NCBI GenBank assembly: GCA_009733575.1
Contig: ML769555.1
Coordinates: 85,461-149,460, forward strand
DNA length: 64,000 nt
DNA from: Gymnopus androsaceus JB14
Lineage: Eukaryota > Basidiomycota > Agaricomycetes > Agaricales > Omphalotaceae
Direction of reading: 5' to 3'
Position 1 is the first letter of the stretch, and every line of letters starts with the position of its first letter. This document shows positions 14,489-43,886 of this stretch, piece by piece. Position numbers and translations under genes: made by a program. Under the pieces are notes generated by a model, which was not told the DNA's origin, did no database searches, and saw only the letters and a list, made by a program, of their open reading frames with translations.

Positions 14489-14779
14489 CAGCTGATTCAG
14501 CCAGCCTAATGCTAAATATCCTGATAGTTATCGCAGAGCATTTTGCAAAATATCACAATAAGAATTTGCACTTGAAAAAAAACACAATGGAAAAATATTT
14601 GGTGAAGATTCTGGCCGGCCCAGCCGTGATGTCGGCAAGTCAGCAAAATAGGTGCTCTTGATTTTCCTCTTCTTCCAGCGCCTATTTGATTCTTTTGCCA
14701 GATATCTGGCATATTTATTAGCTTCTATGTCTTTTGCCAAATATTTGGCATGATCATTAATGCTTAATAAAAGTGGCGG

Positions 14780-16290
14780 GCCAGGCGCTTAGTTTGCACG
14801 TATGCCCGCCCACTGGCCCACTGCTTATGGGCGCTTATTTTCCGAAAAAAATGGATTATTGGGTCCCATAAATCCCCAAAAAATCACTAAAAATGCTAAA
14901 AATATTCAGGGGGCGGGGTCAGGTGCACTGGCACATAATTTAGACATGTATATACATTGCTGGACCCTTATGGGCGCTTATTTTCCAAAAAAAAAAAAAA
15001 AAAAAAATCACTTACTGGATCCCATAAATCCTCAAAAAATCCCGAAAAATACCAAAAATATTCGGAGGTGGGGTCAGGTACACTGGCACATGATTTGTAT
15101 ATGTACACTGGCGGCCAAAACTGATGGACCCCCCAAATCGGGAAGGTGGGCGCTAAAACGATCAAAATTCGTCGTCATTGAGAGAAATAGCGAGCAGTGG
15201 TGCATGCAGTAGATTTTATATATTCTAATGTACATAGGCTGGTGTAGAATGCTTCAAAGTGCCCATATTCCAGAAAGAACAACCACAAAGCTCAAAAATT
15301 GAGTGACAACAGCAAGTACATTTTCAAAACTTGTGGAGGTCGTTGAAGCACAGTTTGGGTGAATTATCTTGCCATAAGTCATGTATATGGCTTAGAAGAT
15401 CAAGTAGTAATCCTAAAGATAGTAAAAAGTGAGATTGAGCCACAAAAACTTCAAGGCAGCATGCGTACCTGTCACCCAGAGCTTTTCCTGCCCTTCAGTG
15501 CAACAACACTCAATACTCTGCCACAAAAAGTTTCTCTGTAGCATTTACTACCATCCTAGGACCCATTGGCATCTTTTCCTTGTTCCAAAAAGCCCATCTT
15601 TGCTGCGAAACACATGAGGAAGCTATCCAAATTGTTTGGAGCGTTGTCGGCAGAAAATAAGAAAAAATGCTCCGGAATTTTGGGCTACCAGCGATGAGGA
15701 GTGGTCCGGGTTGCATAGAGTAAAATTTGAAGCAATTTTGAGGTCAGTTGTTGAGCTGCTCACAAAGGACGATGATGACGATGAATTTTGACCATTTTAG
15801 CGCCCACCTTCCCGATTTGGGGGGTCCATCAGTTTTGGCCGCCAGTGTACATATACAAATCATGTGCCAGTGTACCTGACCCCACCTCCGAATACCTTCC
15901 CAATTTGGGGGGTCCATCAGTTTTGGCCGCCAGTGTATATGTATGCTGGATGCTTATGGGCGCTTATTTTCCGAAAAAAAACAAGGTCAATTATTGGGTC
16001 CCATAAATCCCGAAAAATCATGAAAACTGCTAAAAATATTCAGGGGTGGGGTCAGGTGCACTAGCACATGATCTATTTATAAAGTACTAAAAATATTCAG
16101 AGAGTGGGGTTGGGTGCACTGGCACATGATTTATGTATGTATATATTGTTGGGTACTAATGGGCACTAATTTTCCAAAGAAAAGTCAGTTATTGGGCCCA
16201 TAAATCCCAAAAAAATTGTGAAAAATGCGAAAAATATTCAGGGAGTGTGGTTAGGTGCACTAGCACATGATTTATATATATATAACAAGT
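14780..16290. repeat. Left array of ~140-bp subterminal units
   Basis: Units share TTATGGGCGCTTATTTTCCG, then a poly-A tract, GGGTCCCATAAATCCC, AAATATTCAGGGGGTGGGGT and GTGCACTGGCACATGATT. They appear at about 14820, 14960, 15950 and 16150 and are inverted relative to 17340-18365. The mariner-like element at 15104 splits one unit. Confidence 0.8.
15104..15937. mobile_element. Mariner-like element with a fold-back right end
   Basis: The left end TACACTGGCGGCCAAAACTG runs to about 15185 and is repeated inverted at 15770-15849. Next comes a 43-bp inverted copy of the sequence left of the element (15061-15103 against 15850-15892), followed by a third, partial inverted end (15894-15937) ending in TA. 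The array unit continues normally after 15937, so the whole block is one TA-bracketed insertion. The ~590-bp interior has short plus-strand reading frames around 15359-15717 with no recognised motif. Confidence 0.65.
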
Positions 16291-16590
16291 GATTAGTAAA
16301 AAAATTCCCACACTCAGTAGAAAAACAAAGTGGTAGTGCCCTATATTGTCACCTGACTGATACCAAGATTTCCTTACTTGGGTTGAAAATGCCCTCAGGA
16401 ATCACACTTTACTTGCTCAATCCAGAGTCTTTGAAAATTTGACGTCCTCAAAAATGAAAATTTTCAAAGTCATTTTTATTCAAGAGCATCATTCAAATCA
16501 AGTTACTGTCATTATTTATGCAAAGACTCCATCTGGCGCTGCATGAGTAACCACTACATGCCAGCATTGACCCACTTTCACCCTAGCCCA
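16290..16590. other. Unique spacer inside the 4158-bp element
   Basis: AT-rich single-copy sequence between the left array and the ACTAGTAA satellite. An imperfect local inverted repeat (CTTTGAAAATTTGACG..GAAAATTTTCAAAG) is the only structure seen. Confidence 0.4.
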
Positions 16591-17300
16591 AACATATCAA
16601 CTAGTACTAGTTACTACTAAGTAATTTGGAGTTACTAGTACTAATTGCTAGTAAGTAACTCAGATTTGATAGCACTAATTACTAGTAACTTAAGTAACTT
16701 GGAGTTGATAGCACTAATTACTAGTAAGCAACTCAGAGTTACTAGTACTAATTACTAGTAAGCAACTGAAAGTTACTAGTACTACTAATTACTAGTAAGT
16801 ATCCCAGAGCTACTAGTTAGCACTAATTACTAGTATGCAACTCAGAGTTACTAGTACTAATTACTAGTAAGTAACCTGGAGCTACTAGTTAGCACTAATT
16901 ACTATTAAGCAACTTGGAGGTACTAGTACTCATTACTAGTAAGCAACTGAGAGTTAGTACTAATTACTAGTAAATAACTCGGAGTTGATAGCACTAATTA
17001 CCAGTAAGCACTTGAGAGTTAGTACTAATTACTAGTAAGTAACCCAGAGCTACTAGTACTTATTACTAGTAAGTAACTCGGAGTTGATAGTACTGATTAC
17101 TAGTAAGTAACTCGGAGTTACTATTACTAATTACTAGTAAGTAACCCGGAGCTACTAGTACTCATTACTAGTAAGTAACTTGGAGTTGATAGTACTAATT
17201 ACTGGTAAGTAACTCGGAGTTACTATTACTAATTACTAAGGGTGACCTGGAGCTACTAGTAGTCATTACTGGTAAGTAACTCAGAGCTACTAGTCAGGGC
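16590..17300. repeat. ACTAGTAA-based satellite
   Basis: About twenty units of roughly 34 bp built on AATTACTAGTAAGTAACTCGG-AGTTACTAGTACT. Most units contain ACTAGT and TTACTAGTAA palindromes. It ends abruptly at about 17296 in front of the right-hand array. Pure repeat with stops in all frames. Confidence 0.9.
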
Positions 17301-17339
17301 CGGTGGGCAGATATGTGCACCTCTTTTGCAAACTAAGCT

Positions 17340-18365
17340 CCCTTAAGGAGCCAATAATAGATAAATTAAGGGCTAGTGCACCTAACCCCACCCCCTGGAT
17401 ATTTTTGGTATTTTTTTAAATTTCTTGGAGATTTATGAAACTCAATAATTGACTTTTTGTTCTTGGAAAATAAGCACCTATAAGCACCCAGCAATATATA
17501 TACATACATAAATCATGTGACAGTGCACTTGACCCCACTCCCTGAATATTTTTAGTATTTTCTATCCTTATATAAATCATATGCTAGTGCACCTAACCTC
17601 ACCCCCTGAATGTATTTTTTGCATTTTTCATGATTTTTTGGGGATTTACGGGACCCAATAGGTATTTTGTTTTCGTAAAATGAGCATGCATAAGTGGCCA
17701 ACAATATATATATATGAATCATTTGCCAGTGCACTTGACCTCACCCCCCGGATATTTTTTGCATTTTTCACAATTTTTTGGGGATTTATAAAACCCAGTA
17801 ATTGACTTTTTTTTGAAAAATAAGTGCCCATAAGTACCCAACAATCTATATACATACATAAATCAAGTGCCAGTGCACCTGACCCCACTTCCTGAATATT
17901 TTTAGTATTTTATATACATATACAAATCATGTGCTATTGCACCTAATCCCACCCCCTGAATATTCTCAGTATTTCTCATGATTTTGTGGGGATTCATGGG
18001 ATCCAATAAGCAACTTTTCCAGAAAATAAGCACTCATAGGCGTCCAGCAATGTATATACATATATAAATCATGTACCAGTGCACCTGACCCTACCCCTGA
18101 ATACTTTTAGTATTTTCATGATTTTTTGGGGATTTATGGGACCCAATAATCCATTTTTTCGGAAAATAAGCACCCATAAGCAGCGGGCCAATATATAAAT
18201 CATGTGCCAGTGCACCTGACCCCGCCCCCTGAATATTTTTAGCATTTTTCACGATTTTTTGGAGATTTATGGGACCCAATAATCCATTTTTTCGGAAAAT
18301 AAGTGCCCATAAGCAGCAGGTCAGTGGCTGGCATACGTGCAAACTAAGCGCCCGGCCCGCCACTT
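17340..18365. repeat. Right array of ~140-bp subterminal units
   Basis: Six or more units containing ATCATGTGCCAGTGCACCTG, ACCCCACCCCCTGAATATTT, ATGATTTTTTGGGGATTTAT and GGAAAATAAGCGCCCATAAG, in inverse orientation to the left array. A diverged relative of the same unit is at 21600-21970. Confidence 0.85.
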
Positions 18366-18653
18366 TTATTAAGCATTAATGATAATGCCAAATATTTGGC
18401 AAAAGACACAGAAGCTAATAAATATGCCAGATATTTGGCAAAAGAATCAGATAGGCGCTGGGGGAAGGGGAAAATCAAGAACACCTATTTTGCTGACTTG
18501 CCGACATCACGGCTGGGCCAGCCAGAATCTTCACCAAATATTTTTCCATTGTATTTTTTTCAAGGGCAAATTCTTATTGTAATATTTTGCAAAACGCTCT
18601 ACGATAACTATCGGGATATTTAGCATTAGGCTGGCTACATCTAGTGGGACAAT

Positions 18654-19330: not shown

Positions 19331-19556
19331 TACTCCGAATGATCCTCACGTTCCATCTGCATAATCCAAATATAGAGATACTTCCATCCATACTGTTGTA
19401 CTCCTGCAATACCAACAAATATCCTAATGTACTGCATTTTCAAAGGAACTCCCTCATAGCGATTAGCGCCTAACTAGAGGCGCCTACTTAGTAGCACTGG
19501 AAATTGACACCCAAACTTAACCCAAACCGCCATCCTCTATACTACAAATCTGCGAT

Positions 19557-22755: not shown

Positions 22756-25700
22756 AGATATTATAGGTTAACTTAATCGGAACATATGTCCTATTTTTGT
22801 GCCAAATAAGCCATATTTTCCATACAGTACAGTCCAAAGTATGATTGCAATACAAACTACACCCAACCGAAGTTTTCACCCTCATCATCATCCAATCCTT
22901 GTCCTTCACCTCCTTCCTCCTCCTCATCCTCTTCCTCCTCCTCCTCGTCTAGCGCAGCTGACACTCCCAGCATCATACGGAGGTCAGTGTTGATCGTGTC
23001 CTCCCCATGCTCCTTCGAATCAAGCGGCTTTTTCCAAGTATCAATGCAAGTCTTCTTCAGACCTCTCTGAATTATTGCCTGCTTCAACGCGTAGGCCTTC
23101 AACCCTTCCTGAAGCGCTTCACTCTCCACGATCCTCCGGCCACCACGGTCATCCCAGAATTGCACCTTTCGCTCCATGAACTCCACCATACGTCGCATTT
23201 CTTCCCGCACATACCGAACCTCTTCCAAACCCCTGGCCATACGCACGCGACTCCTTCCCCATTCTACCCGCAACAATTCGTTATTGTTATCCGCTCCATC
23301 CTCCACACTGACTGGCGTAGTCCTCCATATCCAAGAAATCACTTCCCGCGATTGGCCCGTCCCTTCTCGGCGATCCCTCTCCTCACTCAACAGGTTCATC
23401 TCCTCCTCCTCCACCTCCAAAATCCCATCCATTGGCTCTTCCCCCAATTTTTCCGCATCTTCTTCATTTGTACCCTGTCTACCGGGTCCCTTCTTCCTTG
23501 CAACATCGGTGTAGCTTCTTACATCTCCGTTATGGAGTGGTTGCAGTTCCAACTCCCAATCCCCTGGTCCCAGTAACGCTAGCAGTGCAGAACGATTCCT
23601 GCAATAACGCTCTGCCCACCCCTTCGCACGTTGGTGTATTCCGTCGATGACTTCTTGAGAACGCCCCGAGTCTCTTTGTCCCCTGACGTTCGCATTCTTG
23701 AATATCAACATGCGTGCTTTTACCCATAGCGTATGACAAAGGCCTTGAAGAGCATCATGGCAACGAGCTTTGCGAAGGCGAATTTCCATATCGCATAGTC
23801 CCTCGGTACAAACATGTTCCCGCTCTTGCGTTGTCAACAATGATGGAAACCAGATCTTTGCCTCCTCCAGGATAGCGTCGGAATCATGGCTTGTCGGAAG
23901 CTTCTTGTCCACCAAAAGCTGGAGTAGACCTGGCATGTAAATTGCCCGGAGCTCTTCAACGGTTTTGATACTCCCTGTCAGCATTGTACGGCGATCGACC
24001 AGAGTTGAGGATTGGCGAGTGGTCTGTAAAGACTTCTTGAAGACTTGCATGTCTTTACTGAGCTTCTCCCTAAACCGAAGTCAATAATGACACTCCTTAG
24101 ACAATCAAAAAACACTTACTGATTTTCCTCGATATCAAGCGAATATTTCATGAACTTTGCTGCACGAGTTTTGTGCAAAGGATCGCGTTTCCTCTCTCGT
24201 AGGCGTTGCTCATCCTCCAGCGCAAGTTCCTTCTCAACTTCGGCTTCTGACAAAACTACAGGCTCATTAGCATCTATTTTATTCCATCTCAATCAGACAC
24301 GTACATTCTTCCGATGTGGTCCATGGGTGCGTCACATTGTCTTTTGGATATGGCGCTGATTCCCATTGCACAAATAAGACCTCCCACTTCTGAACCAGTT
24401 CTTCAGGAAGGGAATTTGTCAGGCCCTCGTGTGCTTCGCGCTGACAATTCCTGTCTCGAAGCCTGTCCTTGTATTTCTGCCAAAGGGTTGCTCCATGCCC
24501 TACATACTTCTCCCAATTATGAGATCCAAAGTGAGCTTCAAGGACGTCAATACATGTTCCCAGTCCCATAGTCTTTGTTGCATTTCCCAGCACATTGTGG
24601 ATCGCCCACAATCGTTCCAAGAGCTCGAAGTTGGTCATACCCATCCATAGTATCAGGCAGCGCCTGAAAATTGTTCGTGGTTTTGATCTTGTGCACCAGG
24701 CTCATGGAACTTTCCCGATGACTGGGACAAACGTGACGTATAGCTAGGGAGGACGCAACTCCTGCAAGGCCATTGATTCTCCATCCTATGCGAGGAGATG
24801 GATGAACCATTGGCAGACGATGTCGTACCCAACAATCACCAGGAGTATACCGAGGTAATGCCGGAGAATACACGCGAATATGTAGTCCATATTTCCATAT
24901 CTGTGATAATTTTTAGATAAAATGCAAACAGATGATAGTGCACATACCGTTTCGCCTTTTTGAAGATTACCAGCGCCGTTTGGCAACCACATCTCACCTC
25001 GCGCACATCCTACAGCTCCTACACCTGTGTATCGCAACCCCTTTGAGAACCGCATAGTTGCTTTGATAATGGCCTGAAACCCAATGCAGGTACTTATCTG
25101 TATTCACAAATAGTTAGTAATGATTTGATATAACAATTAAGAAAAGTACATACATCATCTTCAGAGGCCAACGATAGGATGTATTTCTCATATGGTTCTC
25201 GTTGTACAAAGTAGCCTTTTCCATCGTTCAGTCCCGGGTCTCTCGAGTGCGACGAGACAAGCTGCTCTTTCAACCGAAAGTTCGCATCCATTGCCACGCG
25301 CAATGCATATAGATCAGCATTTTTCTTGTCGTTCTGCCACCCCTCCGGCAGATTTATACCTGGGTGAGGACATGAGGGGCACTGCACGACCAATTCGCCA
25401 TCAGCTGTGCCTGCTACACCACTTGGATCGTGTCCTCTACCGCACTGCTTGAGGAGTTTTAGGTGCCGCCATTGCAGTACCATTCATACGAGAGCACGAT
25501 ACCTCCAAGGATGTTGCGACAGTCCAGAGGCATCAGTCACTTTACAGAGACCACGATAAAAGTTGTACGTGGATGCCTTTGTCGTGAGCATCAGACAGCT
25601 GGTTCTTTAGCAGTATTAAAATAAACCCCGACAAGTTCTCGGAGGTGCATTTTAATATTTGGGACAACTTGTCAGCACCAAAGTTGTAATATCTATACAG

Positions 25701-25759
25701 AGAGAACGAGAGCCCGTGGGAAAAAAAGGACACTTTTCTCATGCTTGTACAGGTCACCT

Positions 25760-25890
25760 GCACCCAACCCTAACCCTACCTTGTATCCTAACCCTAATGA
25801 TGACTAATATTATAACAGTGGGGGCAAGCCCCCACACCCCCATTTTTATCCTCAACCCCTAAACCCTAACCACCCTAACCCTAACCTATG
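25760..25890. repeat. Interstitial telomere-type CCCTAA repeats
   Basis: Irregular CCCTAACCCTA units at 25765-25797 and 25855-25887, with TTAGGG on the opposite side of the core near 26014-26028 and 26133-26140. Copies are imperfect and interspersed with other sequence. They lie wholly within the 650-bp element, so they are cargo and not a chromosome end. Confidence 0.85.
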
Positions 25891-25906
25891 TGCACCGTTT
25901 GTTTGG

Positions 25907-25980
25907 CACTGTTTTGATCAGGTCTCTATGTTAGGGTAAGCACAAAGTGCTTACCCTAACGAGACCTGACCAAAACAGTG
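25907..25980. other. 74-nt hairpin with TTAGGG in the stem (copy 1)
   Basis: Arms 25907-25926 and 25961-25980 pair over 20 bp with one mismatch (CACTGTTTTG.TCAGGTCTC). Then comes a TAT bulge, and 25930-25943 pairs perfectly with 25947-25960 (GTTAGGGTAAGCAC) around an AAA loop. Copy 2 at 37291-37363 keeps the fold with compensatory changes. Confidence 0.85.
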
Positions 25981-27202
25981 TGAAAATTTCCTTTTTTGTC
26001 ATAACTCGCTTTTAGGGTTAGGGTTAAATGGATACCACCATCGGAAAGAGGGCCGAAAATAACGGGGTGTAGCCGTTTCCGTTTTTTCCCACGCCCCCTA
26101 GTTCCCGAGATATGGCCCCATCTTATCATACTATGGTTAGGGTTCCCCTGTCAGTACTGTAGGCTCTATATAGCTGTCGCAAATATTAAAATGCGCCTAT
26201 GACAAGTTGTCGGGCTTTATTTTAATAAGGCTAGAGCCTCAGGTGCATCAGATGATGCAGGAGCTCCAGATAGCAAAATGTGGCGACTGTCTTGATTCGA
26301 CCGTTGCCTTGGCTCGCCGGATAGTAGCCTCTGCGTAAGAGTTGAATGTGATCGTCGACTTTCTCTCCCCGTTCACAGCCACAGAAGACAAGCTGAACCT
26401 CGTGAATACCATTTGTATGTAAAACGCGGAACTGCTTATGACATGCACGGGGATTTGAGCACGACAAAGACTGGTGCATTAGCACTATTGGTAGTCCTAA
26501 AGACTTAAGCGACCGCTCAATAAACCGACCATCCTTCCATTCCTAAGCAAATAGAATTAATGTTGACTACGCTTCAATGAAAAATTACTCACCTCAACGC
26601 AATGCAATGGATTGAAGCGATGTCTTCTAAGACAGCACCTTCCGCATACCATATCCTCCATATTACAGTCTCTACAGCGGAACAGAGGCTTGCCTGGTTC
26701 AGGTGCCTTGCATGACCAGCACTCCCTGCATATCTTCAGGTCGAGGGAATCGCCTCTTCCATCGAATCGCAATAATTTGTCTAAAAACGTGTCCTGTGAG
26801 TGGAGCCTCCAGTACTGGTGTGGTCGTGACTAAAGACAATCAGCAATAATTACAGTAATCTGGTTAAAGGCTCACTGATTGTAAGGATTTCTTCTTTGCC
26901 TTTGATTGGACCGTTTGCGCTTGAGTTTGAGTTCCTTCGTCTGGATATATCGACTTATTCCACAAGTCCTCGTTGGGTTCGTCTGACGGAAGGTCCAGCG
27001 CATAATCCGAACGGTCTTCAGGCTCCCAATACGCGACCTTGATCCACGATCTGCTGCCTTTTTGAGGGAAAATAGGGACCGTTTTTGTCAAACCTGCTTT
27101 CACAACGACTTCCTGGGAGCGGCCAAACGTAAAGTCGTTGGTCCCGAGGGGTAACTCTTCAGTATAAGCGTTGTTTGTACGGCGACGTTTTTTGGGGTGC
27201 AT

Positions 27203-27995
27203 GAGAGGGAAGATAAACGAAAAGGCGCTTAATTGGTGCTAAGCGTTAGGCGTTAGGTAATTTCTTATTGATTTAGTTTTTGGCGCCAAATCTACACATT
27301 CTGTCTTTCTACTTCGAACTACACCAACAATTGTGCTCTCTCTTTTCTTTATACGTCTCGAACAATTCCATGAACGATGCCGTGAGTTTCTTGCTTGTAG
27401 ATCAGAGTGTACATATGCTCAACATTCAACGCTGAGTAGTGTAGAGCTGCGAAACATAGCCCATCAGTCCATGAACCTTCGCACTGGAGAAAAGTATGTA
27501 CTTTATTCATTCCATGCTCATGTATCTCATGTTTTACAGACATCTCCAAGAACCTTGTCTTAAAAATTACAAACCTATACTCGCTTCCTATGACTCCAAT
27601 TGTTCCTGCCACTGCTCCGGCAGGTTCGTAACGCAAATATCTTGACTTCGCAACCTGTATTCATGATTTATTTGCAGAGTCGTCACCGCACCCCTCGACT
27701 TTATTCCTTCTCTCGATATCAGCTCCCCTCTCGATGTCAACTCCCATAACCACTGTAAACATAGCGCATAGTACTTTCTGTGGCCCTCAATTCTAATGCT
27801 ATCTTTTCGTGAACACTACCACATCTCTGATTGTTATTTAATCATGTGAAAAATACCTGGATAATTGGATATTGTGACAAAAATTGGACGCCGATGTTCC
27901 GCTAGGAAAATTTACAGCTTCTCTGGTACTTCCATCATGAGTCCCCTCTCTCTCTCTGTTTGTTTGCGTTGTCTTTTACTGGATTAAATAGGTCC
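27203..27995. other. Intergenic region between divergently oriented genes
   Basis: It lies between the start of the minus-strand KDZ gene and a plus-strand gene. It has pyrimidine-rich tracts (CTCTCTCTCTGTTTGTTTG just upstream of 27995) typical of fungal promoters. Short reading frames are unconvincing. Confidence 0.4.
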
Positions 27996-28514
27996 ATGCT
28001 GGAACGCACAACTACCCGAAAGTCTTCCATGGGCTCTTATGGCAAATTACCCCCTTCTGATCCACCCGAGCCCGACTCTGACTCCGAGGACGCGCTCGTC
28101 TTCCCATCCTCCCCAACTCCCGCCTCTGCCCCATGTCAGTCAATGGACACCGATGAGATTGTCCCCACCTCCGAAGACACAGAGGTTTTACTAGTCGACT
28201 ACATGCGCGAGCTTAAAAGTAAACAGATGGCGCAATCGTTGAGCTCGAACACGAACCGGGTCTCCAGCACCAACCAGCAATCTTCTATGTCCAACGTGAA
28301 TGAGAAGTCTTCGACCACTAACATGAAAACCTCTAGTACGAAGTCTTCCAACTCGGAGGAGCCGCCTCTTAAAAATGGCTGTCAAGGCTCGAATAGCAGA
28401 CGCTCTAGAGCCCGTCGTTTGGAGGAGACCCGTCTAGGACCTGCTGCGTCTCGTCGCCGGCTGCGGTCCCAGACCAAGAAGGAAGGGGCCCACTTTGAAA
28501 TGTTTCTTTTGTAG
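27996..28514 (+). CDS. Ser-rich acidic/basic hypothetical protein
   Basis: A single open frame of 172 residues from ATG 27996 (MLERTTTRKSSMGSYGKLPP). The N-terminal third is acidic and Pro/Ser-rich (DPPEPDSDSEDALVFPSSPT). A short charged helix-like piece follows (LLVDYMRELKSKQMAQSL), then a Ser/Thr/Asn-rich low-complexity stretch and a strongly basic end (RRSRARRLEETRLGPAASRR). Such composition suggests a disordered, possibly nuclear protein. No domain is recognised. It lies 66 bp upstream of the RNase H1-N-like gene on the same strand and could be its upstream neighbour or a fragment of the same locus. An upstream in-frame ATG at 27960 is possible, but 27996 starts the more protein-like part. 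Confidence 0.45.
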   Translation: MLERTTTRKSSMGSYGKLPPSDPPEPDSDSEDALVFPSSPTPASAPCQSMDTDEIVPTSEDTEVLLVDYMRELKSKQMAQSLSSNTNRVSSTNQQSSMSNVNEKSSTTNMKTSSTKSSNSEEPPLKNGCQGSNSRRSRARRLEETRLGPAASRRRLRSQTKKEGAHFEMFLL

Positions 28515-28580
28515 GTAGTAGTTTATCCAGCTATAAATACAGCCTACCGGCGCTATTATCGCTCTTGTCCTTCTACTTCC

Positions 28581-29631
28581 ATGAGTCAAAACGGACGTCT
28601 CAAAATTCAACACATCGTCCTTAAACCGGGCGACTGTAAGTCTTCCATTTGATTTATTCCGTTGTCTAACCATCGATTGTAGCCATATTGATATCTTACG
28701 CATTACCTGAAGGCGTAACACCCAGGATATCACTCTCAGAGCCTGCAGATATCCAAGTGATTCGCATTCGACTGCCGCACACTGCTTTTGATACTGCTCA
28801 AGACTCTACGGACCCTCCTCCTCCTACAAATGAGGTCTGCGTTCCTGCCTTGGTCAACGTCGTCTCTATTGAGGGTTCTGAGGGAAATGACAATCCAGAA
28901 TCCCCTGCCTCCCCTCTGGTTGCGGAGTATGTGTTTTTCCATTGCGTTATGCCACTTCTAACAATGTCATTGGATAGCACCATTGCTCAATTTCCAAATT
29001 AGTCAGGTACGGGAGATGGCAGCCATCTCGCTTCACTGATGGAATATCCATCTCCTTTCTACACGGCATACAAGCGCATTCCTGAGCTGGATGAAATCAA
29101 CTGGATCGAGCGTTGGCCTCGTAAATACATCGTTGTGGGTAGAGGCTCGCGTATTGGTGTCTTTCCTGACTTGTAAGTTTTGGGTTTTTGATAGTTGAAT
29201 AGGCACTAAAAGAAACCTGTAGTGACTTTTTTCATCAGTTTGTTGATATGCCAGGCTCCATGTTCACACGTGTTCCAGACATGGACACCGCTCGTCACAT
29301 GTACCAAGAGTATCATTCTGGCTCTTTGCCAAAAGTCTTGCTCTTGACACCCAATCTTGATATCTCGGCCCCCCTCATTGACGAAACTGATCCGGACTGC
29401 GATGAGGATGTGCATGTCAGTGTATTGCCCCATCGGGGGCCGCTGCTTTTTCTCAAACAGGGTGACAACCTCAAGCGTCTTATGCGCATTGTAGAAGACA
29501 CTGTACCCTTGTCTTCTCAGACTCTAGAGAGCTACGAGAGCGATTATGGAAGCGATGACTTTGACTGGAGTGACCCCAACTCCGTCCAAGCTCTCAATGA
29601 AGCGGAAAAAAAGGCTATGTCGCAGGGTTAG
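28581..29631 (+). CDS. RNase H1 N-terminal-like (viroplasmin-type) domain protein
   Basis: My four-exon model is 28581-28635, 28683-28930, 29003-29172 and 29223-29631. It sums to 882 nt, giving 293 residues with a single terminal stop; introns are 47, 72 and 50 nt with GT/AG ends. The second intron uses the donor GTGTTT. The middle of the protein (KYIVVGRGSRIGVFPDF, then FVDMPGSMFTRVPDMDTARH) follows the pattern of the RNase H1 N-terminal hybrid-binding domain: Tyr-Val-Val, Gly-x-x-x-Gly-Ile/Val-Phe, later a helix with Ala near Tyr. The rest is low-complexity or acidic (DYGSDDFDWSDP near the end). No RNase H catalytic domain is attached. The minus-strand gene at 36636-38444 carries the same domain. 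Role unknown; nucleic-acid binding is inferred from the domain only. Confidence 0.6.
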
Positions 29632-29698
29632 ACAGATTTAGTTTTTTTTGGAAATTGTTTTCTTCGAATAGACATCAAATAGTAATATCACAGGTTGT

Positions 29699-30268
29699 TT
29701 GCAAGCCGCCATGGCATCTCTCGATCTCTTGCGTGTCTTCAATGAAAACCTCCGACTCGATCTTACTGGCCATGTAGAACGTCAATGGCTCGCGTTGGAA
29801 CTAGACACAGATGAAGATATCTCTGCCTTGGTCGAATTGCATGTTGAAATCCGTGCAGAATTCCGACGAAAGTTGCTGTAGGAGCTAGAAGTTGAAATGA
29901 ACAACATTGTGTATGTATTTATGACAAAATCGAATCCTCACTCATATGGCTTACATTGCACAGGAACAGTACTGTTTGGCAACTGAGGCTTCCCAGCCAC
30001 CTTGTGGATCATTACAAGGAAGTGGCGTACGTACAGGCAATGCAAATCATCAAGAATCGTCGCATGAGGGAGCATGAGGAAGCGCTTGAGGTGTGAGATA
30101 TCAAACGGCGCCTCGTTAAATGTTCTGTTCCCATGTAAGTGATCATAGATGCTTTCCACCAATGGTATAGATAACAGGTTTTGTTTTAAAAGTACGAACC
30201 CAACCGAGGAAGACATGGAAAAGTACAAGTACGTCGAGGTCTGCAATGACGACCTGACGATAGCTTAG
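29699..30268 (+). pseudogene. Small helical hypothetical gene with nonsense codons
   Basis: Reading from ATG 29711 (MASLDLLRVFNENLRLDLTG) gives a helical stretch with VELHVEIRAEFRRKLL, then a TAG at 29879-29881, after which the same frame continues (ELEVEMNNIV). After an apparent intron (from about 29909 to 29963) it resumes with WQLRLPSHLVDHYKEVAYVQ and meets a TGA near 30096. A last piece at about 30192-30268 ends KYKYVEVCNDDLTIA. It directly follows the RNase H1-N-like gene and may once have been its 3' part. Unrecognised family; two in-frame stops suggest it is decayed. Confidence 0.35.
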
Positions 30269-30805
30269 ACATCATAAAATTGCATGTTATATTATGGATA
30301 AATGATTGTAGATCCTATTGAGTTCTATATCAACTGAGAACCCTAAGCATCGCCCTATTTACTCCCACGTATGTCTCTTGCTCCTAGTCTGATCAAGATT
30401 AATGGGCCCTAACCGTAGTTCGATTTTTCACTCACGTGTGAGCGCCTAATTTCAGAAAATTTTCGACGCGAGTCCTATGTGAGCACGTTAATGGGCTCAC
30501 TATCTAACCAATTCAGCTCTAATGATGGCCATACATGTCTATGTGAAGAAATCATTATTGAACGTGAATCTTATGCTCACAGAGATAGAAATAAACGAGC
30601 AAGGAGCTGGCGCTTACTGGCGATGAGCCATCATTCCAAAAGGGAGATATTCAATATATAAGGGAATACTTGATATAAAAGGAAACAGCAGGCACTTGAA
30701 AATCGAGGTCCTGGTGATGCGGCGTGAATTTGTGCAGACTCTAAATATAGCAAGCTTGCTTGCGAGAGTCTGCCTACAGGAGACAATCTTGCTCCCAACC
30801 TGACT

Positions 30806-31986
30806 ATGGACGCTCCCATCAAATTGCGCTACCAGGAAGCAGTGGCACTTCACCATCGTCAACGAAAGGCCCACATTGCGTTTACAACTACTCTGCCTGC
30901 AGAGCATGTGCGGGTTTGGGAAGATCTCTGCGAGCAGTGGGTGAACTCGCCGCTCCCGAAGGACAGAGTGTTCAATCCCTTCGACTTCCCCGAGCAGAGT
31001 ACGTGATTTTTTTTTGTTTTCTGCCAAAGTCTTACATTCAAGAAAAAATTCTTCAGTCCTTTCCGAGACTGACTTGGCAGGAGGATTGTGCGCAGACAGT
31101 CCTATTATCGATCTAACCAAATTTATGACTATTGGCATAGATTTAGAACATTTACTGTAAGTCATTAAAAATACCACTTTGAACTGAACTAACGGGTGTA
31201 ATGTGCAACAGGGCTCAATGGCGCGACAATGTCCAAGCTGCTGAAGCCTCGCGTTGTACGCCCGTTCAAGCTGCTCAACTTGTTGAACACGCCTTTTTTC
31301 TACAAAAACTCCTCACCAGGTTCCAGGAGGTCCAGAGGGTCTATATGCCCGGACTCCAACAATATTTGGCAGACCACAATGAGTCATTGCCGAATTTTGA
31401 TGATGGTATTCCTGAGCCAGCAAAACTATGGTTCCCATTGGCGGTACCCCTTGTTTCCCGATTTACTGTGGGTTCAGTGCGTGCTGTGGAGACCGTGATC
31501 AAGTTGCGCCAGTATCGGTGCTTTGAAAGCTTGGCTTCACTTCGGCGCTACCTCAGCTTGCGGACTCGTATGATCCTAGATCAGTCTACTAAGCCTAATG
31601 GCCACCGTTTGTCGACTCGTTCACAGAAAGCTTTTTCTTCTGTGCTAGACCAGGCCAATAATACTGCTCAACGTTATCGACGCGATAGGAAGGCCATCTT
31701 GGAGCTATGTGGGCGAGGAGATTGGGAGCAGTGATTGCAGGTCCTCTGCAATGACAATGCCTTGAGCGCAGACCCCAGTTTACTCACGGATCGACGAGAC
31801 AACATTGAAAGGGAGAATGAGGTGGTAGAGCCATGGCACTCCTGGATCTGGTATACTGATATTGGTGGGACAGAGGAAGATGAGATCTTACATGCGGAAT
31901 GGTGTCGGAGCTGGGCCCGCATGCGCAAATCCAAGGAAGAGGCGGATGCCTTGCGGGAGGAATTACACAGATCTTCGTTCGATTAG
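30806..31986 (+). pseudogene. KDZ transposase C-terminal fragment
   Basis: Plus-strand exons at 30806-31000, about 31060-31150 and 31211-31986 encode the C-terminal helical part of a KDZ transposase. DAPIKLRYQEAVALHHRQRK, SETDLAGGLCADSPIIDLTK, VYMPGLQQYLAD, LWFPLAVP and ILELCGRGDWEQ parallel IYMPGLLQLLVD, IWFPSLLT and LLALLGPGDWEL in the copy at 22857-27202. A TGA at 31732-31734 interrupts the frame, which then continues to 31986. The catalytic N-terminal two-thirds and the CxC2 cluster are missing, so this is a 5'-truncated dead copy in opposite orientation to the larger one. Confidence 0.75.
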
Positions 31987-32130
31987 TAGTCAATTGTGTC
32001 ATACAAATAATTAAATTTGGTCCCGCCCTTGATTGCTTGAGCTGTGGCATACTAGAGTTGAGTAACATACTAGAGTTGATAAGGGACATGAAATACATTG
32101 ATTTGACATTCGCGATTCAATTGCACATAT

Positions 32131-32432
32131 ACGTTCAACTCAATACAGAAGAATACAGAATAGGATAGATATTGCATTGAGAATCGATAGTAATACTGGA
32201 TTGAGGCGAGCATATACCTTGAGCATATTCTTTGATATTCAACTCATTCGGTGAATTTTACTTACATTCAAGTTGGAAGTGCATTCAACTCAATAGAAGA
32301 ATACAAAGATAGATATTGCATTGAGAATTGATAGCGATACAATGGATTAACGTGAGCATATACCTTGAGCATATTCTGAGATACAACTCATTCAGCAAAG
32401 CTTACTTACGATCAAGTTGGAAGTCAGTAGGT
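32131..32432. repeat. ~150-bp tandem duplication
   Basis: Two copies (about 32131-32284 and 32285-32432) share CAACTCAATA, GATATTGCATTGAGAAT, GAGCATATACCTTGAGCATA and TCAAGTTGGAAGT in the same order, with about 10 percent differences by eye. Non-coding. Confidence 0.75.
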
Positions 32433-32446
32433 ATTATAATTCATAG

Positions 32447-32773
32447 TATGTAAGTAACGAACAATGCATGTAGTACAGCTATCGCTAACTTTTCATTTAT
32501 GGTTGTTCAATTTGATTATACCTTATAATTGGCATCAAATTCGAGTATATAACGGCCCCAGAGCGTTGTTATTGGGACTGACAAGCCTGCCGTGGTGATA
32601 TTCAAAAGTGTCATGTAAGTAACGGACAATGCATATACAGCTATCGCTAACTTTTCATTTATGGTTGTTCAATTCGATTATACCTTATAATTGACATCGA
32701 ATTCGAGTATATAACAGCCAGAGCGTTGTTATTGGGACTGACAAGCCTGCCGTGGTGATATTCAAAAGCGTCG
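32447..32773. repeat. ~165-bp tandem duplication
   Basis: Two nearly identical copies (about 32447-32611 and 32612-32773), each starting TGTAAGTAACG and ending GTGGTGATATTCAAAAGNGT. They share CAGCTATCGCTAACTTTTCA and GAGCGTTGTTATTGGGACTG. The second copy ends just upstream of the gene starting at 32870, so it may hold duplicated promoter sequence. Confidence 0.85.
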
Positions 32774-32869
32774 GGGGCGGCCTTACCAAATCGGGCAGAT
32801 TAGCATGCTCACGTGCTGTGAATCTATTTCGCTCCGACTTCCATTGCTCGACTTCATCGCATTTATTCT

Positions 32870-33374
32870 ATGAAGTTTCAAGACCAATACGCGCCCGAAC
32901 ATGTGAAACGGGACTACACCTATGAGGAGGACCGTGAAGAGGTTATCCGTGAAGGCTGGGCTCCACACATGACTGACAAAATTATCCTCGGAAGGCACGA
33001 ACAACGTCGGTATTATGGTAGGATTATGTACGGGAGAGAGTATTATCAAATGTATGCCACATTCAATGTTCTGTGCTATCTCAATCTATATACTGACGCG
33101 AGCTGGCAGCAACAAGGACGTGTTACTCGCACGTACTTCTGAGCGTAATAAAATGTACGTTCATCCTTTGGGAGCCGTATTACGAGCAGAAATGCTCAAT
33201 GTTTGCTTAGCCGGGCCCAAAAATTATCTGGGAGCCCCCCGGAAATTCAAGAGTTGGCCAAGGAAAGGCATTGCCAGGCTCAGGCGTGATATCGCAAAAG
33301 AAATCGTGCACTGCTTGCGCAAAAGGAGAAATCACGACGTGCAAAGAAATAGGTATGTACTTTGCATTCAATAA
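32870..33374 (+). CDS. Small basic hypothetical protein
   Basis: Model: exon 1 is 32870-33051 and exon 2 is 33110-33374 (447 nt, 148 residues, one terminal stop), with a 58-nt GT/AG intron. The N-terminus is charged (MKFQDQYAPEHVKRDYTYEE), followed by WAPHMTDKIILGRHEQRRYY. The C-terminal half is strongly basic (FKSWPRKGIARLRRDIAKEI). No known domain. It lies directly downstream of the duplicated ~165-bp unit. A different acceptor would change the join, so the C-terminal half is less certain than exon 1. Confidence 0.4.
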
Positions 33375-33478
33375 GCTTGATGATTGGCTCACTATGACTC
33401 CAAGCGCTCTTCTACCTTGGCTTGTATAGTATAAAACAAAGCATGAATTTTTGAATCTGCTGTGACCATTACACTAAG

Positions 33479-33988
33479 TTAACTCAAACCCCAAGTAATC
33501 AACTCAAGGTCGCGCAACTCTGCTAGGGCCAGCTCATACTCCTCCAGCTCCCACTCTTCCTGTTCCAACTTCTTTTTGCTTTCCTGTGCTTTAGCCTGAT
33601 GCAGAGCATGAATTTTGGTGGCCGCAGTAATCCGCCTTTTTTTCGCTTTGATCTTCACATCAATCTCAATGAGTTGTTCTTGGACCTGGGGACCGGTAAA
33701 AGTCGGCAAAGAAGCTCCCTGAAGCCTAGCTTTCTCACTGCAGCGGTGCACTGCAATGAGATTTTAGTTTTTTTGAGCAGAAGGTAAATATTAATCTGGC
33801 TTACGCTGGATGCTGGCCCAAAACGTCACATCAAGGATATCGAGGGACGTATCACGGTCTTCATGTCCCGCCCAGGTGAGTCCCTGTTCGTTGAAATCAT
33901 TGCGCATGTTGTTGAGCACATGAATCCTTGTCAAGGATCCAACATCAGGGGACGCTTGTGTTAATGTATCGTGGTTAGAGGGGCTCAT
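33479..33988 (-). CDS. Hypothetical protein, WAG/PTFTGPQ family, copy 1
   Basis: Exon 1 33988-33805 and exon 2 33750-33479 sum to 456 nt (151 residues, one terminal stop), with a 54-nt intron (GTAAGC...TTGCAG). Exon 1 encodes VLNNMRNDFNEQGLTWAGHE followed by RDTSLDILDVTFWASIQ. Exon 2 starts LHRCSEKARL, contains LPTFTGPQVQEQLIEIDVKI and continues as a long charged coiled-coil-like helix (AKAQESKKKLEQEEWELEEY). The intron position and both motifs are shared with the gene at 35649-36367. Function unknown; the second exon suggests a protein-protein interaction coil. Confidence 0.6.
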
Positions 33989-34121
33989 AATATGTTGGAT
34001 CTGGTTGCTCGAAGTTATATTATAACCGAAATTCGCTCACCAGAATTTTTCTAATTTGCAATGCGTACACCACATGGAGATACGATTTCGGAAAATAATG
34101 AGCAAGGTATCTACAAACGGG

Positions 34122-34222
34122 GTATATACTTAACTGGACACCTTCACATTCGTTCCTGGCGCTCATGCTCACAAAGCGCCAGCTCACGCTCACATTCGGC
34201 TGGCTCACGCTCACGGCACGTT
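34122..34222. repeat. GCTCACGCTCACATTC repeat, inverted partner of 35130-35277
   Basis: The stretch GACACCTTCACATTCGTTCC plus GCTCACGCTCACATTCGGCT is found as a reverse complement at 35130-35250 (GTGAGCGTGAGC..., GAACAAATGTGAAGGTGTC). Both copies sit beside members of the WAG/PTFTGPQ gene family, and the right copy interrupts one member. It may be a mobile element with a degenerate CTCACG repeat; its ends are not defined. Confidence 0.5.
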
Positions 34223-34340
34223 CATGTCCTGTACAGTCATTCTCATCATTTAGCGTGATTGAGGAATTTTGTTTGTTTAGTTTATGCACAAATAATACCA
34301 CACAAATCTTTCACTCCTGCTACCATGGTCTGCTACCTAA

Positions 34341-34975
34341 ATGACTGACCGAAACAATGAGGAGCTTGTCGCGCTCATCAATCGACTTCCCAGTAACATT
34401 CTGAACGTGTTTCGGGATCGAGTACGTAAATAATCTATGACAGAAGGGTATTTTGAGGCAAGTATCCAGTCTCTTAATGCTCGATTTTAATCTTACTCAG
34501 TATCATCGCTCGGAAACTCGATTTCAACACACTCCAAAAGGTCTAGAATTCCCTCAAAAGTGGTGTTCTCAGAAACTCCCGCAATTCGGAGTTTGACCGA
34601 ACCTTCCGCAAGCTGAATTGGGATACCAACAAAAACAAAAGAGAAGAAGACAATTCTCTTTCAGCTACTACAGGTAATGTATCGCCGCCCGACTGTGAGT
34701 TCTGATTTCCAAGTCTTTTGGTACAATTAATTCATTCATTACTATAGTATACAATGTCCCAGATCCACTTGTATGGTCATTCCGGGATAGCTTCGAATAA
34801 CAACAACTTTGGTGCTGTGGACTTTGATTGGCAATATGAATATGGCTGGGACCAGGTTTGACTTAAACGCTGGTGCCACCTTTGGTGCGAATATGGACTT
34901 TGGCATTGGTACGGGTATGAATTTCGGTGCTGGTAGTGGTATGAACTTTGGCGCGGGTTCTAATTTCTCAATGTA
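34341..34975 (+). pseudogene. Small Asn/Gly-rich hypothetical gene, frameshifted
   Basis: A first exon from ATG 34341 (MTDRNNEELVALINRLPSNI, ending near 34421) has a plausible donor GTACGT, and a second exon from about 34501 (YHRSETRFQHTPKGLEFPQK) runs into a stop in frame. Near 34753 MSQIHLYGHSGIASNNNNFG starts another open stretch. It needs a one-base shift near 34858 to reach a repetitive end (TFGANMDFGIGTGMNFGAGS) stopping at 34975. It could be one decayed gene or two; no family is recognised. Confidence 0.3.
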
Positions 34976-35129
34976 GTCAAGTCAACTTTATTATTATCAT
35001 AGCTTATGAATACTGTATAACTTTGAATGAATGTATTTCATTCAAATTTTAATCATAACTTCATACAATATCGACTACTTAATCTACGGCACCAGGGTTG
35101 TATGTGACTTTGAGGTCTGTGGATGTGAG

Positions 35130-35277
35130 TGTGAGCCGGTTATCAGTGAGAGTGAGCCTTGCAAATGTGAGCGTGGGCCATCTGAATGTGAGCGTGAGCT
35201 GGCGGAATGTGAGTGTGAGTGCCAGGAACAAATGTGAAGGTGTCTGGTTGTGTGGTCACCCCTACAAACGTTTAGGT
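35130..35277. repeat. GTGAGCGTGAG repeat, inverted partner of 34122-34222
   Basis: GTGAGNGTGAG units (TGTGAGTGTGAGCCGG, TGTGAGCGTGGGCCAT, TGTGAGCGTGAGCTGG). The plus-strand frame across it gives an artificial Cys/Glu-rich peptide. It ends where the coding remnant of the WAG family at 35278-35420 begins. Confidence 0.55.
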
Positions 35278-35420
35278 TGTTGAGGGAAGTGTCACGATGC
35301 TTTTTTCCTGCCCAGGTTCGGCCCTTATCATTAAAATCGCTCTGAATATTGTTCAGGGTAATCAAGGATCCAGCATCGGGAGAGAGCTGTGTTTGGGCTT
35401 CGGAAGTACGCTTTCCCCCA
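35278..35420 (-). pseudogene. Truncated WAG/PTFTGPQ family copy
   Basis: The minus strand encodes LSPDAGSLITLNNIQSDFND, then KGRTWAGKKHRDTSLNNLNV. This parallels exon 1 of the gene at 33479-33988 (SPDVGSLTRIHVLNNMRNDF, GLTWAGHEDRDTSLDILDV). The match stops exactly where the GTGAGCG repeat begins, and no second exon is found. It is a broken third family member between the two apparently intact ones. Confidence 0.65.
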
Positions 35421-35648
35421 TCTGAATGAAGTTACATGCTGAAGCTCGACTGCGCACGAAATCTAGTCGAGCTTTCGGTTTTTTTTTCTGGCTTTTATTT
35501 TACCCATTGTTCGCTCGACGATCTGGAGTGCACGAGCGCTACAGAAATTCCATGATAATTCCACGACGACTTCGACGACTTTTCAGGCTTATTTCACAGG
35601 GGAAACTTGCTGATTTCGGACCCGAAAACTATGTAACACAGCACTATT

Positions 35649-36367
35649 TCAAGTTAGATCTAAGAGGCCTGTGTAGGAGGATGGGGGGGGGAAGTATGTG
35701 AGTGCGATCGAACACAAGTCGCGAAGATGTTTCGAAGTGTCTTCCAGCTGCTCCACCCTTTTCTCAACCTTCCTGCGCTCATCCACTGCATTGTGATAGG
35801 TGTCCAGCAGTTTATCAGCGTCTTGAGTACACCGGGTGCACTCGAGCTTACGGGCAACGAGCTCCTCCTCAACGGATGCAAGCCACGACTCGATCTGGGG
35901 ACCCGTAAATGTTGGGAAGGGGGCATGAGCATGTTGTGCAACAAGGCTGCATGCATGGACTACAAATATTTCAGTACTCACTTTGCGGAATGTAATATGA
36001 ACTTACGCTGTATTTGTGCCCATCGCTCGGACTCTTCGCCATCGAGATGAGCTGGACGGTCCGAGCGACCATGCCAAGTAAGGAGAGCCATACGAAGGTC
36101 TTGTCGGACATGGTTCATGCTCAATTCTACTAGGGTACCATCCGGGAATGGGTTGTCTTCTGCATGTACTGGATCCCAAGAATTGCGGCGGGATTGATTC
36201 CAGCCGCCGTTGTTCTGCCCCCATTGTCCCCAATTCCCGGCTCCATCTTCTGCTCGGTGGGTACCAACCAACCAGCCACTTCCTGGGCCATTTGCAAGGG
36301 CTGAGTGTGCTACGTCCTCGTTATCTTTCTCAGAGGGAAGGTCAATGTCGGGGCTCGATGAGGGCAT
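35649..36367 (-). CDS. Hypothetical protein, WAG/PTFTGPQ family, copy 2
   Basis: Exon 1 36367-36007 and exon 2 35959-35649 sum to 672 nt (223 residues, one terminal stop), with a 47-nt intron (GTAAGT...TTGTAG). Exon 1 has an N-terminal extension rich in Gly/Asn/Trp (GNWGQWGQNNGGWNQSRRNS). It continues with LSMNHVRQDLRMALLTWHGR and ends WAQIQ at the same splice position as copy 1. Exon 2 begins LHACSLVAQHAHAPFPTFTG, then PQIESWLASVEEELVARKLE and a coiled-coil-like helix (VDERRKVEKRVEQLEDTSKH). It shares architecture and intron phase with copy 1. Unknown function. Confidence 0.6.
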
Positions 36368-36635
36368 CTGGGCAAAAGGAATAGCATGTCATCCAACATG
36401 TCCGACATGTTAATAAATGGGAGCGTATCGTGTGTATCGCGAAATCGATGGGATCGTATTCTGGTTAAGATCTCAATTCTCAAACGCAAAACTTTGGAGT
36501 GAGAGAGTCTGGACTCTGGGTAGGGATCTCAGTTGGCTTGCGAAACCTGGGAGTTGCGTAACAAATATGATATGATTAAGGGAGAAAGAAAGAGCGAATT
36601 GGATATTTTTACGACCAAATTGCACACCGTAGATA

Positions 36636-38444
36636 TCACTCCCCGAGCTCTAGGTCGGCCACTGAATCCTCCAAGTTATCTGTAGTTTCAAGAATTGTGA
36701 GCTCAGGAGCATCTGCATGACCGAAGTATGCACTGATATACGCTTCACGAGCGTCATTCCAGCTGTTGTAGCTCCTCTGGTGCGATCCCGATATACCGTG
36801 TGTATACGCTTTCGCTTGACCGTACCTAGACAGCTGATTCTGCCAGCTTAATGCAAAAAATCACGATAAGTGTCATGGGCCGTTTTGCAAAAGATCCCGA
36901 TAACTTTTAGCACTGATATTTTGGAAGCATTCACCAAATATTTGGAATAGGTAGATTGTGTTGCAGAATATTTGGTAAATAAATAACGATAAAATCACCA
37001 TAAATGCCTAAAATAGAAATGGCTATAGCGGGTGAAGGAGGGCCTGTGGGAAAAAAACTGACACCCCCCCCTACCCCGTGGTAGTGATGGCTATCCAACC
37101 ATAACCTTATTTCACCCCTATACCCTAATTATCCTAACCCTAACCCTGTATATTTTAACAGTGGGGGCAAGCCCCCACACCCCCATATCATCCTCAACCC
37201 CTAAACCCTAACCCCTAAACCCTAACCCCTAAACCCTAACCCCTAAACCCTAACCCCCTAACCCCTAACCAATGCTAACCCATAGTTTGGCAATGTTTTG
37301 ATCAGATCTCTATGTTAGGGTTAGCACAAGTGCTAACCCTAATGAGATCTGACCAAAACATTGCTTAAATACCCTTTTTGGTAACCCTAACCCTAACCCT
37401 AATCTTAACATAATCATAATATTTTGCAAAATATTGCTTCAACATGCTAATTGGGACAATATGCCCTAACCCTAACCCTAACCCTAACCTAACCTCACCT
37501 GACCTGATTACATAATCTTCCGGATATGGTCTTAAAAATATTTGGTAAACATAAATGTGGTTGCTAGAATATTTGGCAAATCATCTAGCCATATATTCCT
37601 ATTCCAAAATCTCAGTGCTAAAAGTTATCGGGATCTTTTGCAAAACGGCTCACCACACTTATCGTGATCTTTTGCAAAAGCCTAGCAACATCTAGTGACC
37701 TAGATAGATAGTAAATCTTAGTGAACGATTAATGAGGGATAACGCATACCAGTTGCCAAAGATACCAACGCGAGTACCAGCGAATACGACGTAGAACTTC
37801 GATCCATTCACTCGCTGAGGTTGCACAAGGTCCTGAGGGTGTGGGATTACAGCGTGTGTGGTTTCACCTATAAGGGAATCGGTCACAGAGGAGGTGGATG
37901 TCAGGGAAGGAGACTGGGGGAGCGCAGGATCCTGTCTCGAGCTTCGGGAAGGCGTATGCGCAGGAACTTGCCTCGAGCCTCGGTAGGGCGTAGGTGAGCT
38001 AGTAAGAGCATTGGGAGTCCTAGGCGTGCGAGGAGACGCAGGCGGTGGAGGAGGATTGGGAGTCCTGGGCGTGCGAGGAGACACAGGCGGTGGAGGAGGA
38101 TTGGGAGTCCTGGGCGTTTGAGGAGATGCAGATATGCTCGCGCTCAACCGGGGTGTTTGTGGCACAGCTGGAGAGATATGCTCAGTGTTGGTGGTTGTGG
38201 AAGGAGTATTTCCCTGAGTGTAAGGAGAGGAGGTGAATGTCCTCGTAGTGATTGTATCTAGTAAGGGGTTAGTTAGCGACAAAAAGAAATAACTCGGAGG
38301 AAACATACTGCAAGTAAAGCTGCGAGTGATCTCTACATCCATAAAAGAACCTAAAAGAACTTGAATGAGCTGAGTTTCATTGTCAAAGATAGAAGTGGTC
38401 AGACCGTCTCCCCAATCAACGTGCGTACGAACTGTTTGGGGCAT
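36636..38444 (-). CDS. Proline-rich RNase H1 N-terminal-like protein with element-bearing intron
   Basis: Model: exons 38444-38309, 38257-37750 and 36825-36636, 834 nt in total, giving 277 residues with one terminal stop. Exon 1 starts MPQTVRTHVDWGDGLTTSIF. Exon 2 holds repeats of TPRTPNPPPPP and SPRTPRTPN, then KFYVVFAGTRVGIFGNW. Exon 3 completes the domain with YGQAKAYTHGISGSHQRSYN and WNDAREAYISAYF. Together these fit the RNase H1 N-terminal/viroplasmin fold. Intron 1 is 51 nt. Intron 2 is 924 nt because an 867-bp element sits in it; without the element and one duplication it would be 50 nt. No catalytic RNase H domain. Coding appears intact, so expression depends on splicing out the element. 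Related to the gene at 28581. Confidence 0.7.
37130..37500. repeat. Interstitial telomere-type repeats
   Basis: CCCCTAAACCCTAA units (37190-37265) and CCCTAACCCTAACCCTAACC runs (37133-37147, 37384-37401, 37465-37487). CCCTAA is the complement of the TTAGGG telomere unit of many fungi. All lie within the 867-bp element. Confidence 0.9.
37291..37363. other. 73-nt hairpin with TTAGGG in the stem (copy 2)
   Basis: 37291-37310 pairs with 37344-37363 (CAATGTTTTG.TCAGATCTC, one mismatch at the same place as copy 1). The bulge is TAT, and 37314-37327 pairs with 37330-37343 (GTTAGGGTTAGCAC, one G.T at the base) around an AA loop. Compared with 25907-25980, three stem pairs change on both sides. Confidence 0.85.
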
Positions 38445-43735: not shown

Positions 43736-43886
43736 TCCCCTCTTCACTTTAAAAATGACTATAGGGTATCAAATAAAACATTAAAGTGAAACGACAGCAT
43801 GAGAAAAACAAAAAAAATTATTCAAACTGTAAAACCGTCCGAGGAATTTGTACAAAAACACCTAAACTATACTTTACACCGATGCT

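Follow-up and report, generated by a model that had tools for sequence, protein, structure and literature searches.

We analysed a 64,000-nucleotide stretch of the genome of the agaric Gymnopus androsaceus JB14 (Omphalotaceae; contig ML769555.1, positions 85,461 to 149,460, referred to below as the window and numbered from its first letter) and followed three elements of this window, designated A, B, and C, through the assembly (83.3 Mb in 934 contigs, with the window at C173:85461-149460). These elements are non-autonomous DNA transposons, similar to miniature inverted-repeat transposable elements, that appear to be moved by transposases of the KDZ superfamily, most probably of the Kyakuja lineage. 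They lie in the window as follows:

Element A: 14489..18646, plus strand; 4158 bp, non-coding, with inverted end regions of ~600 bp.
Element B: 25596..26245, plus strand; 650 bp, non-coding, with inverted subterminal repeats of ~65 bp.
Element C: 36831..37697, plus strand; 867 bp, non-coding, with inverted subterminal repeats of ~75 bp.

Each element begins with CAGCTG(A/G)TTC, ends in TG, and is enclosed by an exact 7-bp target site duplication (TSD), which is GGACAAT for A (14482-14488 and 18647-18653), CATCAGA for B (25589-25595 and 26246-26252), and ACCTAGA for C (36824-36830 and 37698-37704). No open reading frame (ORF) of at least 150 amino acids was found inside any of the three. The initial annotation of this stretch had given the coordinates, sizes, termini, and duplications exactly, and its statement that no protein is encoded agrees with this result. 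Between its left and right tips, A matches at 5 of 10 bp, B at 5 of 9, and C at 11 of 21, and good inverted homology starts at positions 11, 10, and 22, respectively, extending over ~600, 65, and 75 bp. A interrupts an ORF that is reverse-transcriptase-like by eye; once the flanks are joined with one copy of the TSD, one frame of this ORF stays open through the junction, with a stop further upstream. When the flanks of C were joined, one minus-strand frame stayed open and the likely continuation shifted frame at the site, so that this junction was not used as evidence.

Patterns representing the element ends were searched in the assembly. The C-type left-end pattern CAGCTGRTTCTGCCAGC gave 140 matches at up to two mismatches (73 exact, 17 with one mismatch, and 50 with two, some of which may be unrelated), and the B-type left-end pattern CAGCTGGTTCNTTAGCAG gave 90 matches at up to one mismatch; the reversed control was without a match in both cases. 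Right-end patterns for the C/A type, CACTAGATGTWGCYAGSC, and the B type, CACCNGAGGCTCTAGCC, matched 60 and 45 times, respectively, with no match of either control. A genome search with the whole of B returned 271 candidates, 40 of which were scored, and 35 of these 40 spanned the entire query. For scoring of TSDs in the B family, 30 loci were fetched with their flanks, two truncated loci (L026 and L027) were dropped, and a 2-bp adjustment was made to the boundary of L020, giving 28 scored copies. The C/A group contributed 18 copies, including two (L037 and L041) that had been found via their own TSD and that therefore bias the count for this group upward.

An exact 7-bp TSD was present in 35 of the 46 copies (22 of 28 in the B family and 13 of 18 in the C/A group), and this number rose to 41 with one mismatch allowed (25 of 28 and 16 of 18, respectively). 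Pairing of flanks from different copies gave no 7-bp match in 1062 combinations (756 for B and 306 for C/A). Exact duplications of 8, 9, or 10 bp were present in none of the 46 copies, a single case was scored at 4 to 6 bp (n = 4, C/A group), and L035 and C187 of the C/A group were without a duplication. The termini CA..TG were found in A, B, and C and in all but three of the 30 B loci (27 in total); two of the three are truncated and one has a mutated tip. The initial annotation had proposed such a search with the ends and with scoring of duplication length, and had considered that other duplication lengths or other homology boundaries would mark the ends as coincidental; no such pattern emerged from the 46 copies.

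The duplication length and the termini point to a group that was reportedly named originally by Iyer et al. 2014, the Kyakuja elements. Kojima 2025 (PMC12730594) describes Kyakuja of Agaricomycotina with 7-bp TSDs and 5'-CA..TG-3' termini, and it gives TSDs of 8 bp for Zisupton, 8 bp for Dileera, 2–3 bp for Plavaka, and 7 bp for hAT7 of rust fungi. The view of the initial annotation that a 7-bp duplication fits none of the superfamilies expected here thus had to be given up. The 8-bp duplications of Zisupton and Dileera were seen in none of the 46 copies. Plavaka was rejected both on its TSD length and on position, given that none of 84 Plavaka places lay within 14 kb of 104 C/A-type end places. 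We also rejected Dada, which is described as leaving TSDs of 6–7 bp and inserting in small-RNA genes (PMC3706591), because the 35 exact TSDs have no target sequence in common; the window is in addition without an Rfam match at the gathering threshold.

A candidate source of transposase was found for ends of the C type. A long element of 11,945 bp at C12:136037-147981 has C-type left and right ends, is bounded by the exact TSD GCATTGG, and shows 94.7% identity to C over the terminal 76 bp at both ends. It contains, antisense to its left end, the domains CxC2 (PF18803, E value of 4e-39) and KDZ (PF18758, E value of 1.3e-26). The interior of C was not found in the parts of this element that were read (L033, L062, L091, and L092, which lie outside 143501-146463). 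Two relatives of the long element, on C843 (91% identity; a C-type left end of its own lies 1.7 kb past the aligned region) and on C418 (95–97% identity; the alignment starts 1468 bp from the left end, compared with 1463 bp in C12), have the same domain order relative to the C-type left end as the C12 copy. The C418 copy, which was identified when a portion of the long element was used as a nucleotide query, is split by two insertions that themselves have C-type ends. The first, a C-type-ended element of 10,784 bp nested in the KDZ element (C418:33913-44696), has GGTGGTG on both sides, whereas C12 has GGTGGTG once and so represents the empty site. The second is a C-type mini-element flanked by AGCATGG and AGCATGC. 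Further alignment breaks were present at C418 48332-48996 and C27 319292-319874.

These copies bear on the possibility that a hAT transposase of the hAT7 type moves the elements and that the KDZ genes are mere neighbours. The left ends described here start with CAG, as do those of many hAT elements. Duplications of 7 bp are reported for hAT7 of Puccinia (PMC12730594). The KDZ domains, however, lie within a TSD-bounded element that carries the 76-bp ends of C on both sides, two related copies preserve the same arrangement, and hAT7 elements, with their hAT transposase, are reported in that source from rusts, whereas the host here is an agaric. We therefore regard a hAT7-type origin as very improbable.

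A more serious alternative is that the elements are mobilised by another branch of the KDZ superfamily, similar to Zisupton or Dileera, that makes an atypical 7-bp cut. KDZ domains have expanded in this genome, with at least 161 matches, and the domain matches identify the family rather than the branch; genome-wide, we also counted at least 150 Plavaka and at least 119 CxC2 matches. Inverted end repeats are present in the elements studied here but not in the two described Kyakuja families. Moreover, KDZ1 to KDZ3 of Cryptococcus neoformans, another basidiomycete, are mobile elements of ~9–11 kb that contain CxC1, with terminal inverted repeats (TIRs) of 139–241 bp and TSDs of 8 or 4–8 bp, KDZ2 and KDZ3 combining TIRs with TSDs of 4–8 bp (PMC12810828). 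They resemble the long elements described here in size, KDZ content, and possession of TIRs, but differ in having CxC1 instead of CxC2 and in their TSDs. Zisupton and Dileera likewise belong to the KDZ superfamily, but their reported duplications of 8 bp (PMC12730594) contrast with the 35 exact 7-bp duplications and the absence of any at 8 bp among our 46 copies. Another KDZ branch is thus an unlikely agent, and we infer that a Kyakuja transposase is the better candidate.

With Kyakuja, the elements have in common the 7-bp TSDs, the CA..TG termini, an Agaricomycotina host, and, in the long element, a KDZ transposase together with what may be a TET/JBP-like gene. TET/JBP genes are carried by many Kyakuja members and have been published as such, and Kyakuja elements with complete ends and duplications were described only recently, from long TET-carrying elements (PMC12730594). 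The window elements differ in being non-coding, in having inverted end repeats of 65–600 bp, and, in the case of B and C, in carrying a hairpin with telomeric repeats. The TET/JBP-like ORF (198 amino acids, L092) lies further inside the C12 element and has 933 homologues, with PF12851 (Tet_JBP) found on 2 of the 120 listed. CpG sites in B and C copies (L001-L060) showed ~7–10 times the substitution of other non-telomeric sites (0.19–0.22 versus 0.02–0.03 per site and copy), as expected from methylation decay. It may be noted beside this that the long partner of these CpG-decayed copies seems to carry the TET/JBP-like gene.

Comparison of the ends indicated how far the case for C extends to the other two elements. 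The ends of A are clearly similar to those of the C12 element (70–76% of aligned bases, z scores of 8.6–12.5), and for A-type ends KDZ and CxC2 matches were located ~2.7–4 kb inside a right end on C518. Judged by their ends, A and C are related and B is much more diverged, so that A, B, and C are not one family, contrary to the initial annotation; a single common family was ruled out by this comparison. A is also set apart from B and C by its lack of telomeric hexamers.

Several observations weigh against the assignment to Kyakuja. The inverted repeats of A, B, and C begin near the tips, whereas the Laccaria families Kyakuja-1_LB and Kyakuja-2_LB are described as without TIRs (PMC12730594); these more inverted-repeat-like ends reduced our confidence. 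Likeness between the ends of B and those of the C12 element is weak (z scores of 3.0–5.2), and none of the KDZ-bearing elements identified had exact B ends. A left and a right end of the B type pair over 7594 bp at C241:63309-70902, which may be a long element with B ends. The full-length transposase copy with matching ends that the initial annotation had suggested looking for was thus obtained for the C type, in a form whose KDZ stretch contains two stop codons; because of these stops, the C12 element may be a decayed copy rather than an intact source. Counted up to a distance of 6 kb from the C-type left ends, KDZ matches numbered 7 inside and 8 outside (150 of the 161 KDZ matches and 90 of the 140 left ends were used), so that neighbourhood proves nothing by itself and the case for KDZ rests on the specific copies rather than on enrichment. 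Among the inside matches, four of the seven were antisense at 2.7–3.2 kb and a fifth was at 3.6 kb. Finally, the 198-amino-acid ORF itself matched no Pfam family at E values of up to 0.1, and the best Tet_JBP score among five homologues scanned was 30 bits (P0037), compared with a cut-off of 34.9. A search of solved structures with this ORF and one homologue yielded nothing useful. Given that Pfam scores were absent or below the cut-off, we label this ORF only as TET/JBP-like.

On the assignment that we favour, a KDZ transposase would recognise the CA..TG ends together with the inverted subterminal repeats, excise the element, and reinsert it at a staggered cut that gives rise to the 7-bp duplication. 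A, B, and C would be mobilised in trans by such an enzyme, and the CCCTAA-hairpin module would travel as cargo in B and C, and in one or more additional end-types, and would be copied by transposition.

This module was examined in B and C; the initial annotation had noted CCCTAA/TTAGGG repeats and a common core in two of the three elements. B contains 11 telomeric hexamers (7 CCCTAA and 4 TTAGGG; shuffle mean of 0.3) and C contains 21 (20 CCCTAA and 1 TTAGGG; shuffle mean of 0.48; longest exact run of 4), compared with none in A (shuffle mean of 1.7). Its parts are as follows:

CCCTAA-type repeats of B: 25763..25887, plus strand; located around the mini-hairpin GTGGGGGCAAGCCCCCAC.
Two further TTAGGG units of B: ~26013-26026.
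Hairpin (palindromic) core of B: 25906..25982, no strand; telomeric hexamers lie within the stem.
CCCTAA-type repeats of C: 37122..37494, plus strand; with a mini-hairpin at 37161-37178.
Hairpin core of C: 37290..37364, no strand; homologous to the core of B.

The core of B (region 25900-25989) folded as DNA at -34.4 kcal/mol with a z score of -12.4 against shuffles, and that of C (region 37278-37375) gave a z score of -10.9. An internal stretch of 258 bp is common to B and C at 71% identity. The module, defined as CCCTAA repeats plus a 75-bp hairpin, was found in B, in C, in a further end-type (L047 and L058), and at loci without listed ends. Eleven C copies carried between 8 and 20 CCCTAA units each, a variation suggestive of slippage or unequal exchange.

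The occurrence of the module with different ends raises the possibility that it is an element in its own right, nested in several mini-elements through insertion. We consider this improbable, given that no duplication of its own and no sharp common boundary were identified, although not all carriers were aligned. It is also conceivable that the hairpin is functional, binding telomere-repeat proteins or extruding a cruciform and being maintained by selection, with escape from silencing, positioning in the nucleus, or easier excision through stalled forks as proposed benefits. Such a role would fit the sharing of the module by families with diverged ends (~90% identity between the cores of C and B copies, compared with weakly similar ends), the retention of 97.5% of 990 stem pair cells across 33 unique cores, in which 3 pairs had changed on both sides, and the lower substitution of B hexamers (0.011 versus 0.028 at other non-CpG sites). 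The hexamer effect, however, was not significant in B (49/648 by circular shift) and was absent in C (326/823), the two-sided changes are few and possibly reflect arm-to-arm conversion, and A is without any telomeric hexamer. A functional role is therefore rather doubtful, and the module is more likely to be a tolerated passenger. We give little credence to the broader proposal that several Kyakuja mini-element families recruited the module as a working part, for instance as a landing pad for telomere-binding proteins or a replication-stalling cruciform, and that these families, as they spread, give rise to a large part of the interstitial telomeric sequence and hence to potential sites of breakage or telomere healing.

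The contribution of the elements to telomere-like DNA was assessed in assembled interstitial sequence only. The assembly contains exactly 10 (CCCTAA)4 tracts, of which 8 lie inside C-type-ended elements and the other two are at C245:82657 and C677:13492. The ten tracts do not overlap, so that no exact run longer than four units was found, and true telomere arrays are probably either absent from the assembly or unlike the CCCTAA pattern. (CCCTAA)3 gave 80 matches in 57 loci, compared with 4 matches for the reversed pattern. Among these loci, 27 were within 1.3 kb inward of C/A-type ends (outward control, 1 locus), 1 more lay close to a listed core, and the remaining 29 were associated with no end and no core; three of the last were read in part, with the module present in L104 and not in L101 or L102. 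No (CCCTAA)3 was found inside the 40 listed B copies. About half of the short exact telomere-repeat tracts in the assembly lie inside elements of this kind, and those of the C type are a main source of such exact interstitial tracts. The dispersal of telomere-like DNA by non-autonomous elements that the initial annotation had envisaged is supported by these counts.

With regard to the surroundings of the elements, B is nested within a KDZ gene of the window, the parts of which are listed below:

KDZ-type transposase gene: 22857..27238, minus strand; split over several reading frames, with B nested within and outer limits set by eye.
CxC2 stretch of this gene: 26231-26542, minus strand; profile match.
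KDZ stretches of this gene: 24279-24701, 24786-25103, and 25094-25483 (the last slightly under the cut-off), minus strand; profile matches.

B is inserted in the CxC2-coding stretch, the profile match ends at B (positions 1-85 of 107), and joining the flanks with a single 7-mer allows the CxC2 reading to continue in frame. The outer ends of this KDZ element were sought among 15 candidates, none of which had convincing inverted ends. An ORF at 31201-31734 (plus strand) resembles by eye the COOH-terminal part of a similar transposase and had no Pfam match. A contains a nested element at 15059-15894 with inverted arms of ~120 bp at 97.5% identity, by eye a mini-element of the Tc1 type, and is flanked by ORFs (12110-20555) that by eye appear DIRS-like, with a reverse transcriptase and a tyrosine recombinase; three of these ORFs were scanned against Pfam without a match. 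At 42246-47609 (minus strand) lie ORFs of the Ty3/gypsy type, in which domains of RNase H and an integrase zinc domain were matched.

The genome paper of Marasmius oreades classified Kyakuja together with non-autonomous elements, and short Kyakuja relatives may therefore already be catalogued there (PMC8290104). A limited search of open-licence literature, judged by titles and abstract openings, found no report of telomeric repeats inside KDZ elements. The MoTeR elements of Magnaporthe also tie interstitial telomere tracts to transposons, but they are retrotransposons that insert in telomeres, whereas here a DNA transposon would take the repeats to dispersed sites (PMC7367193). The copies described here supply candidate non-autonomous partners for Kyakuja, along with sequences of the ends and with empty sites, and excision would be testable with a substrate of 650–870 bp. 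Carriage as DNA-transposon cargo would offer telomeric repeats a simple route to dispersed chromosome sites, and its consequence for breakage may also be tested, given a report that interstitial tracts only three TTAGGG units long can promote breakage in Magnaporthe (PMC7367193).

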